DNA of 64,000 bases from positions 62,001-126,000 of the forward strand of contig NZ_JAFBIS010000004.1 of assembly GCF_021531435.1 (NCBI RefSeq), given 5' to 3'. Made by a program: the position numbers and the translations under genes. Positions 22,110 to 50,761 of the stretch are shown here, piece by piece. The number at the start of each line of letters is the position of its first letter. Position 1 is the stretch's first letter. This DNA is from Oscillibacter valericigenes (GTDB taxonomy: Bacteria > Bacillota > Clostridia > Oscillospirales > Oscillospiraceae). The notes under the pieces were generated by a model. That model ran no database searches and was not told the DNA's origin. It saw only the letters and a list, made by a program, of their open reading frames with translations.

Positions 22110-22404
22110 CAACACCAATCATCCGAAATACGATGACGGGGAAAAAGTCTTGCCACAGACGCTTCAGAGAGTTGCCGGCCGCTGCGAGGCAATGCAGAGT
22201 GGAAAGATGTCACTGGCCCCTGAGTAGTTCCGCTGAGACGCATGTTTAGGCGGGAACGGGTTTCCTCACCGTTACCAAAGAGGCGGGATTCGTCCGGACG
22301 TGAGCCGGGCCGATGCCGAAAGCGGGCATTTTTTATGCCAATGAGAGTGGTACCGCGGAAGTTCAGCTTTCGTCTCTTCTTTGAAGAGACGAAAGCTTTT
22401 TTGT
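22110..22404 (+). promoter_or_regulatory. T-box leader of leuACDB, leucine (CUG) specifier
   Basis: Stem I shows a K-turn-like ATGACGG (about 22131-22138), the AG-bulge region CAGAGAG, and a distal loop. The likely specifier is CTG at 22213-22215, a leucine codon, six nt before GAGTAG. The T-box motif GAGAGTGGTACCGCGG is at 22343-22358, with TGGT matching tRNA ending A-CCA. A terminator follows (stem 22365-22378 with 22384-22397, then T6). Uncharged tRNA-Leu should stabilise the antiterminator and allow leu transcription. Family knowledge plus direct reading of motifs. Confidence 0.93.
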
Positions 22405-26873: not shown

Positions 26874-28265
<1,392 letters not shown>

Positions 28266-49294: not shown

Positions 49295-50566
49295 TTATTC
49301 GGCGGTATAGACCTTTCTCCCCGCGCTCCAGACCGCCCGGACGGCGCCGCTCTGCCGCAGGTACACGCACCGCTCCAGCCGCTCCGCCGGGGTCAGGGGA
49401 TGGGGCTGAGGCAGGGTGTCGTCCGCCAGAACAATGGCGTGGAGAGGGTTACCGGGGGCAAAGCCGGGCTGTTCTCCGAAATACGCCGCGCCCGCGGAGG
49501 TGCCTAAGTACCAGCCCTCGGGCACGGTGAGGAAATCGGTTTCCCAGTTGTCCAGCACCCGGCGGGCCTTGGACGCCCGGATGGCGGAGGCCACCACGTC
49601 GAACATGTCCAGATGGTCGCCGCCGGCGATGTCGCTGCCCAGGGCCACTTTCAACCCCTCGTTCAGCATCACCCGCACCGGCGCCACGCCGGAGCAGATG
49701 TTTTGGTTGGAGTCGGCGCAGTGGACCACGGTGACGCCCGCGTCTTTCATTGCTTTCCGCTCCCGTGCGTCGGACCAGACGCAGTGGGCCATGACGGTGC
49801 GTTCGTTCCAAAGGCCGTATTTGGCATAAGTCTCCCAATACTGCCGGCAGTCGGGGTGGAGCTGGCGCACCCACTCCATCTCCGCGCCGTTTTCCGACAG
49901 GTGGGACTGGACGGGGAGGTCCCGCTCCGCCGCCAGCTTCCCCAGGAACGCCATCAGCTCATCGGTGCAGGAGGGGGTGAACCGGGGGGTCAGCATGGGC
50001 TTGATGTGGGCAAAATCCCCGCACTCGTCCAGCCAGCGCAGGGTCTCCCGCATGGATTCCTCGGTGGTCTCCTCCAGCACGCCGGGGGCGGCGTTGCGGT
50101 CCATGTTCACCTTGCCCACATAGCCTGTGACGCCCGCCTTTTCCAGCTCGTCCATCAAAATCAACGTGGCGTCGGTGTGGAGGGAGGAGAACATGCATAC
50201 CCGGGTGGTGCCGCGGGACACCAGCTCATGGGCCAGCTTATGGTAGATTTCCCGGGCATAGTCCGGGTCCGCGAACCGGGCCTCCGTGGGGAAGGCGTAG
50301 GCGTTCAGCCAGTCCAGCAGGGGCAGGTCCATGCCCATGCCCAGCATGGGATACTGGGGGGCGTGAAGGTGCAGGTCCGCGAAGGACTGCAAAATCAGGG
50401 CGCCGCCGAAGTCCTCCACGTCCGCCCCCGCGTACTGCTCCGGCAGGGTGGGGAACATCCCCGTGATGACGCCGTTTTCCGCCACCAGATACCCGTTTTC
50501 CGTGGCGTCCAGCTTGCCCGGAGACGGGGCGGAAATGATCGTGCCTTTCAGAATTGTGACAGCCAT
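49295..50566 (-). CDS. guaD: Guanine deaminase (amidohydrolase)
   Basis: 423 residues, the family length. It converts guanine to xanthine and ammonia with one Zn2+. The metal motif HxH is DLHLHAPQYP, and LDWLNAYAFPTEARF is typical of guanine deaminase rather than other amidohydrolases. KVNMDRNAAPGVLEE, TPRFTPSCTDELM, the zinc His in SHLSENGAE and AHCVWSD, and the catalytic Asp in LGSDIAGGD are all present. A minus-strand GTGAGGTG precedes the ATG at 50566. Expression is governed by a purine-riboswitch leader. It supplies purine salvage or catabolism. Confidence 0.93.
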   Translation of the reverse strand: MAVTILKGTIISAPSPGKLDATENGYLVAENGVITGMFPTLPEQYAGADVEDFGGALILQSFADLHLHAPQYPMLGMGMDLPLLDWLNAYAFPTEARFADPDYAREIYHKLAHELVSRGTTRVCMFSSLHTDATLILMDELEKAGVTGYVGKVNMDRNAAPGVLEETTEESMRETLRWLDECGDFAHIKPMLTPRFTPSCTDELMAFLGKLAAERDLPVQSHLSENGAEMEWVRQLHPDCRQYWETYAKYGLWNERTVMAHCVWSDARERKAMKDAGVTVVHCADSNQNICSGVAPVRVMLNEGLKVALGSDIAGGDHLDMFDVVASAIRASKARRVLDNWETDFLTVPEGWYLGTSAGAAYFGEQPGFAPGNPLHAIVLADDTLPQPHPLTPAERLERCVYLRQSGAVRAVWSAGRKVYTAE

Positions 50567-50601
50567 ACAAACACCTCACTTGTGAAATTTCGGCACAAAA
50601 A

Positions 50602-50706
50602 AGGAGCGCCTGACCGGATAGCCCTACCCGACAGACACTCATAGCAGAGCCTTTCGGCGGCCCCGTAGAAACTTTCGCGCCATTGCACAGCGAAATTATA
50701 TGAGTC
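50602..50706 (-). promoter_or_regulatory. Variant guanine-class purine riboswitch with overlapping terminator
   Basis: Read on the minus strand. P1 is ACTCATA (50705-50699) paired with TATGAGT (50643-50637). TATAAT follows the 5' strand, then P2, GTTTCTAC (50672-50665) as J2/3, and P3 CGGGGCC/GGCTCTG with a 7-nt loop GCCGAAA. C at 50644 sits at the position of C74, which reads guanine. J3/2 lacks the usual A before this C. A terminator stem pairs 50640-50632 with 50612-50604, then CT6; its 5' arm shares four bases with P1, so ligand binding should prevent termination (ON). Confidence 0.88.
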
Positions 50707-50732
50707 CTTTTGCATTGTATGCCGTTATCTAT

Positions 50733-50761
50733 AAAATAGCACGGAATGGGAGAAAAAGCAA
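50733..50761 (-). promoter_or_regulatory. Promoter of the guanine-deaminase transcript
   Basis: Minus strand TTGCTT at 50761-50756, a 17-nt spacer and TATTTT at 50738-50733, about 27 nt before the start of riboswitch P1. Confidence 0.6.

Follow-up and report, generated by a model that had tools for sequence, protein, structure and literature searches.

A predicted guanine ON riboswitch upstream of a guanine deaminase gene in Oscillibacter valericigenes and related Clostridia

The window, meaning the whole stretch of 64,000 nucleotides analysed here from Oscillibacter valericigenes, carries on its minus strand the gene guaD (49295–50566), which appears monocistronic and encodes a guanine deaminase-like amidohydrolase of 423 amino acids. 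This agrees with the gene identity given in the original prediction: TIGR02967 is still the best-scoring family, at 305 bits, despite falling below its equivalog cut-off of 375; the closest PDB relative is 2i9u (327 bits), and human guanine deaminase 2uz9 (243 bits) aligns with the protein across the HxH, TPRF, SHxSEN, MAHC/MAHG and SD/TD motifs, including the metal site. Upstream on the same strand lie a ribosome-binding site, GAGGTG (50572–50577), and a putative promoter (50733–50761), a consensus match only, with TTGCTT at 50761–50756, a 17-nt spacer and an extended −10 element, TGC-TATTTT, at 50738–50733. Most of about 30 related leaders repeat the pattern TTGC ... TGNTATNNT 5′ of their aptamer. 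The genome also encodes a selenium-dependent xanthine dehydrogenase (XDH; 1329 bits), and an xpt gene that showed no purine riboswitch in a genome-wide RF00167 scan. Elsewhere in the window, two ordinary T-box leaders on the plus strand (22124–22380 and 26876–27123) precede apparent leuA- and ilvC-type genes.

Between the putative promoter and guaD, the minus strand matches the Rfam covariance model of the purine aptamer (RF00167) over its full length at 50723–50622, with 41.8 bits against a gathering cut-off of 37 and a genome-wide E-value of 1.9e-5. The scan that had been proposed as a check was thus significant. This is the sole purine aptamer that Rfam models detect in the window, and the RF00167 scan found no second one elsewhere in the genome, even at E ≤ 10. 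The predicted parts were located where they had been placed: a P1 of seven Watson-Crick pairs (50699–50705 with 50637–50643), TATAAT at 50700–50695 and the core GTTTCTAC at 50672–50665. The remaining helices are P2 (50690–50695 with 50673–50678) and P3 (50659–50664 with 50646–50651). L2 contains GG at 50680–50681, expected to form a kissing interaction with CC at 50657–50656 in L3; we infer this loop-loop pairing from known purine riboswitch structures. The ligand pocket comprises U22 (50698), U47 (50671) and U51 (50667), the latter two within the J2/3 core GUUUCUAC (50665–50672), and C74 (50644). C74, the mark of the guanine class, lies in J3/1 (50644–50645) next to a G at position 73 (50645). 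The RF00167 match and C74 together point, as predicted, to a guanine-class aptamer upstream of guaD. Its folding energy is not unusual relative to shuffled sequences (z = −1.56), and support for the aptamer therefore comes from the covariance-model match and from covariation, not from energy.

The aptamer is followed by an intrinsic terminator. Its lower stem has the predicted nine base pairs (5′ arm 50640–50632 with 3′ arm 50612–50604), to which we add an upper hairpin at 50615–50630 with a 6-bp stem (50630–50625 with 50620–50615). By comparison with the P4 hairpin of pbuE (PMC7707468), this upper hairpin is likely to be the toehold that forms first. The stem is separated by C50603 from a T6 tract at 50597–50602; the tract is present as claimed, but lies almost entirely outside the interval first assigned to the element (50602–50706), with only 50602 inside. 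The terminator folds at −22.4 kcal/mol, compared with −10.9 ± 2.2 for shuffles (z = −5.2), and a general terminator scan did not pick it up. As the original prediction held, bases 50637–50640 belong both to the 3′ strand of P1 and to the 5′ arm of the terminator. AAAAGGA at 50705–50711, just 5′ of P1, is complementary to TCCTTTT at 50599–50605 at the terminator end, a complementarity seen in the window and its close relatives only, and it might assist antitermination.

With these bases in common, P1 and the terminator exclude each other, as in a pbuE-like ON switch. We explored this with ViennaRNA, which takes no account of ligand, tertiary contacts or polymerase kinetics, by forcing P1 or by disfavouring it through energy terms that left its bases free to pair elsewhere. 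The probability of the terminator base was about 0 (0.00) with P1 forced and 0.98 with P1 disfavoured (leader L020), so that folding with and without P1, another of the proposed checks, showed P1 and the terminator base to be mutually exclusive. In the window leader, the free fold has −42.0 kcal/mol and the fold with the aptamer forced −41.7 kcal/mol, so that the two states are near balance. During simulated elongation, the probability of P1 stays at about 0.9 or above up to 50607 and drops to 0.05 once the hairpin is complete at 50604. In these models the predicted ON direction survives, with the terminator lost when P1 is forced and formed when it is disfavoured. Against the ON reading we count that the shared part of P1 is limited to four of its seven pairs.

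The textbook role of guanine-I riboswitches is to switch off guanine synthesis or import. The guaD leader could conceivably behave in the same way, with guanine promoting termination as in xpt by means of an overlooked antiterminator, and the OFF direction of the guanine-I riboswitches described so far, such as the four of Clostridioides difficile (PMC11477304), speaks for this. Yet the terminator includes the 3′ strand of P1, which makes the two structures alternatives, and no helix was found through which P1 would favour the terminator. When P1 was forced, the probability of the terminator base fell by over 0.5 in 54 of 58 guaD leaders, and the forced/disfavoured test identified no OFF-like leader among the 58, whereas control leaders were OFF-like or neutral with one exception. 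Constrained folding thus pointed the other way, and an OFF direction through a hidden antiterminator is very unlikely.

A GuaD search of named genomes yielded 80 related guaD loci, mainly from Oscillibacter, Dysosmobacter and other Oscillospiraceae or Clostridia, with a large share of gut or rumen MAGs. An aptamer is present upstream of guaD in 54 of these 80 loci, about 90–280 bases from the start codon (in L090 recognized via Rfam); in L054 it is visible but runs into Ns. The Rfam cut-off was passed by 18 of 20 distant guaD loci. Loci lacking the aptamer belong mainly to Chloroflexota, Pseudomonadota and one clade of Clostridia that has guaD immediately after another reading frame. Mapped onto the GuaD tree, the aptamer label requires 6 changes compared with 22 in shuffles, and the association of aptamer and gene has therefore been mostly inherited and is probably old. 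These leaders are related by descent, and counts among them are not independent events.

Both helices are conserved and covary. In an alignment of 51 distinct guaD leaders (A1), 97.6% of aptamer cells are paired and 12 of 19 pairs show two-sided changes; for the terminator stem the figures are 97.8% and 5 of 9; the two-sided changes in both helices exceed those in all 500 shuffles, and slid and shuffled controls fall far below the observed pairing of both. P1 is paired in 96% of cells, P2 in 99% (6 of 6 pairs with two-sided changes in some leader) and P3 in 97% (5 of 6), and the second G of L2 and both C residues of L3 are invariant. The inner four pairs of P1 never vary and are thus uninformative either way. 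Two of the four shared bases can pair with both their P1 and their terminator partner in all 51 leaders, a third in 47 and the outermost in 40; where this fails, the mismatch is mostly with the P1 partner. The feature is real and well conserved. It could be supposed that the aptamer is degenerate, without ligand response, and that the hairpin acts as a constitutive attenuator, as the modest Rfam score and the fold z of only −1.56 might suggest; invariant pocket bases, covariation of P2 and P3 across the 51 leaders and retention over much of the GuaD tree make this exceedingly improbable.

Among 58 distinct guaD leaders, the terminator takes 2–7 bases of P1 in 57. An overlap of at least three P1 bases occurs in 93% of guaD leaders, compared with 38% when the spacer is shuffled; given the latter figure, overlap in a single leader is only moderate evidence, and it is conservation that carries the case. 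Sharing of at least two P1 bases was found in 57/58 guaD leaders and in 8/8 leaders of 8-oxoguanine deaminase genes, compared with 2/27 other purine-riboswitch leaders (Fisher p 3e-19, a statistic that ignores kinship among leaders). These 27 precede salvage, synthesis and transport genes (pbuG, xpt, purE, guaB, guaA and others), named by eye from their translations.

The 8-oxoguanine deaminase leaders came from a genus search in which 36 of 61 genomes contained a relative of this enzyme; nine relatives form a subgroup at 86–100% identity, and 8 of these 9 loci carry an aptamer with A73. The enzyme of one of them, L012, scores 579 bits against PRK08203. Their terminators take 6–8 bases of P1 and by sequence can extend into J3/1, giving ON-type leaders in L002, L003, L008, L009, L012, L139, L140 and L142. 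Since two deaminases have the same logic, the arrangement points to regulation of purine breakdown and not to coincidence. An apparent adenine deaminase gene in L190 also has an upstream purine aptamer with C74, without overlap of P1 and terminator.

When a model trained on the guaD aptamers was applied to about 680 genomes of the class and order, it recovered one further guaD leader, from another family (L207), again of ON type. Leaders of other genes in these genomes showed mostly OFF-type or neutral anatomy, with a few overlaps of 2–5 bases (L181, L193, L212 and L229). The guaD leader of L056 (2370–2490) has no Rfam match but contains stems and a terminator (GGCGTCCGGTG / CACCAGGCGCC TTTTTTT), and is possibly a different regulatory RNA. 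In two Bacilli/Acholeplasmatales MAGs, purine aptamers precede guaD without a nearby terminator (L066, 2404–2510; L080, 332–445). Translational control is a weak possibility there; in L066, the hairpin that would sequester the Shine-Dalgarno sequence is a weak one that does not outperform shuffles.

The pocket residues U22, U47, U51 and C74 are invariant across the 58 distinct guaD aptamers, and C74 is present in all 99 aptamers compared. As these are the ligand contacts, guanine is the likely ligand. J2/3 is GUUUCUAC or GUCUCUAC in 58/58. The window aptamer therefore has the guanine-I pocket, C74 with U22, U47 and U51, and resembles guanine-I (RF00167; Bacillus subtilis xpt-pbuX) in its three-way junction, its GUUUCUAC core, L2 GG, L3 CC and 7-bp P1. 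It differs in that the 3′ strand of P1 forms part of the terminator 5′ arm, predicting an ON and not an OFF switch, in serving a catabolic gene, in a shorter L3 and in position 73. A73 is a common guanine-I consensus base that does not pair with the ligand. The window aptamer has G at this position, and the 58 guaD aptamers have G in 36, U in 10 and A in 12; A is found in 31 of 33 control aptamers, the remaining 2 having G, and all 8 8-oxoguanine deaminase aptamers lack G or U there. We did not treat the missing A73 as excluding membership in guanine-I, because accepted guanine-I leaders also vary there. Together with the short L3, the departure at position 73 may mean an affinity or selectivity differing from those of textbook guanine riboswitches, and our guess is that G or U at this site lowers affinity to a level suited to sensing guanine excess.

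The same departure raises the question of whether an ON switch responds mainly to another compound, such as xanthine, hypoxanthine, 2′-deoxyguanosine, guanosine or 8-oxoguanine. G or U occupies position 73 in 46/58 guaD aptamers, variant cores of the purine scaffold do switch ligand, and guanine-I discriminates against hypoxanthine and xanthine only about 10-fold (PMC9295807). However, all four contact residues are kept, alignment A1 shows neither in J2/3 nor in J3/1 an insertion like those of xanthine-II and guanine-II, and the gene consumes guanine, so that induction by the product xanthine would be less sensible; we give such a ligand a small chance. Guanine-I has been described as OFF, while guanine-II, which has insertions, and xanthine-II are predicted to be ON (PMC9295807). 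Guanine-II of Paenibacillus, found mostly with phosphoribosyltransferase genes (PMC9295807), shares the guanine-type pocket and the ON direction; it has a one-base insertion in J2/3 and a changed J3/1 and controls salvage, whereas the guaD leader has an 8-base J2/3, GUUUCUAC, and a two-base J3/1, and would control breakdown. Xanthine-II (PMC9295807) has its scaffold and ON architecture in common with the guaD leader but differs in G51 and in insertions in J2/3 and J3/1, and xanthine-I/NMT1 (PMC7373994) has an unrelated fold.

The closest mechanistic parallel is the pbuE adenine riboswitch of B. subtilis, which is ON by strand displacement (PMC7707468). In both, the aptamer itself would be the antiterminator, and a downstream hairpin would nucleate, invade P1 and become the terminator; the guaD aptamer has C74 instead of U74, indicating guanine and not adenine, and its target is a deaminase instead of an efflux pump. 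Under this mechanism, RNA polymerase would make the aptamer first, and it would fold with P1. At low guanine, the downstream hairpin would start from its upper stem, invade P1, capture 50640–50637 and extend to the U-tract, and transcription would stop. With guanine bound, P1 would be held and the hairpin would lack its four base-proximal pairs, ending about five bases short of the U-tract and allowing readthrough into guaD. The xanthine produced by GuaD could then feed the selenium-dependent xanthine dehydrogenase encoded in the same genome. What the sequences show directly is the aptamer, the bases common to both helices, how far these helices are conserved and covary, and the link with guaD; ligand, kinetics and direction in cells we infer, and a guanine ON switch at guaD is a strong prediction from sequence. 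Very probably the element is a transcriptional guanine ON riboswitch that mediates substrate induction of guanine deaminase by pbuE-like strand displacement.

In the literature searched, with partial coverage, we found no description of a canonical guanine aptamer acting as an ON switch for guaD, although an earlier mention is possible; none of PMC7373994, PMC9430930 and PMC3519856 reports a guanine riboswitch at guaD. Going further, the guaD aptamers could be a distinct guanine-sensing subclass (G or U at position 73, short L3) with affinity tuned to guanine excess, and could make up, jointly with the leaders of 8-oxoguanine deaminase genes, an ON regulon by which gut bacteria control purine breakdown in lineages whose salvage genes lack purine riboswitches; we consider this idea less likely than not. 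The guaD arrangement recurs throughout a broad group of Clostridia from gut and rumen, in more than 50 leaders of related species. These offer a clean natural collection in which to study the conversion of an OFF aptamer into an ON device, a possible role of position 73 in setting affinity, and the induction of purine breakdown by gut bacteria. In these bacteria a guanine-I aptamer, by sharing its P1 with a terminator, appears to work in reverse, in the service of a degradative enzyme and contrary to nearly every known switch built on this guanine-sensing core.
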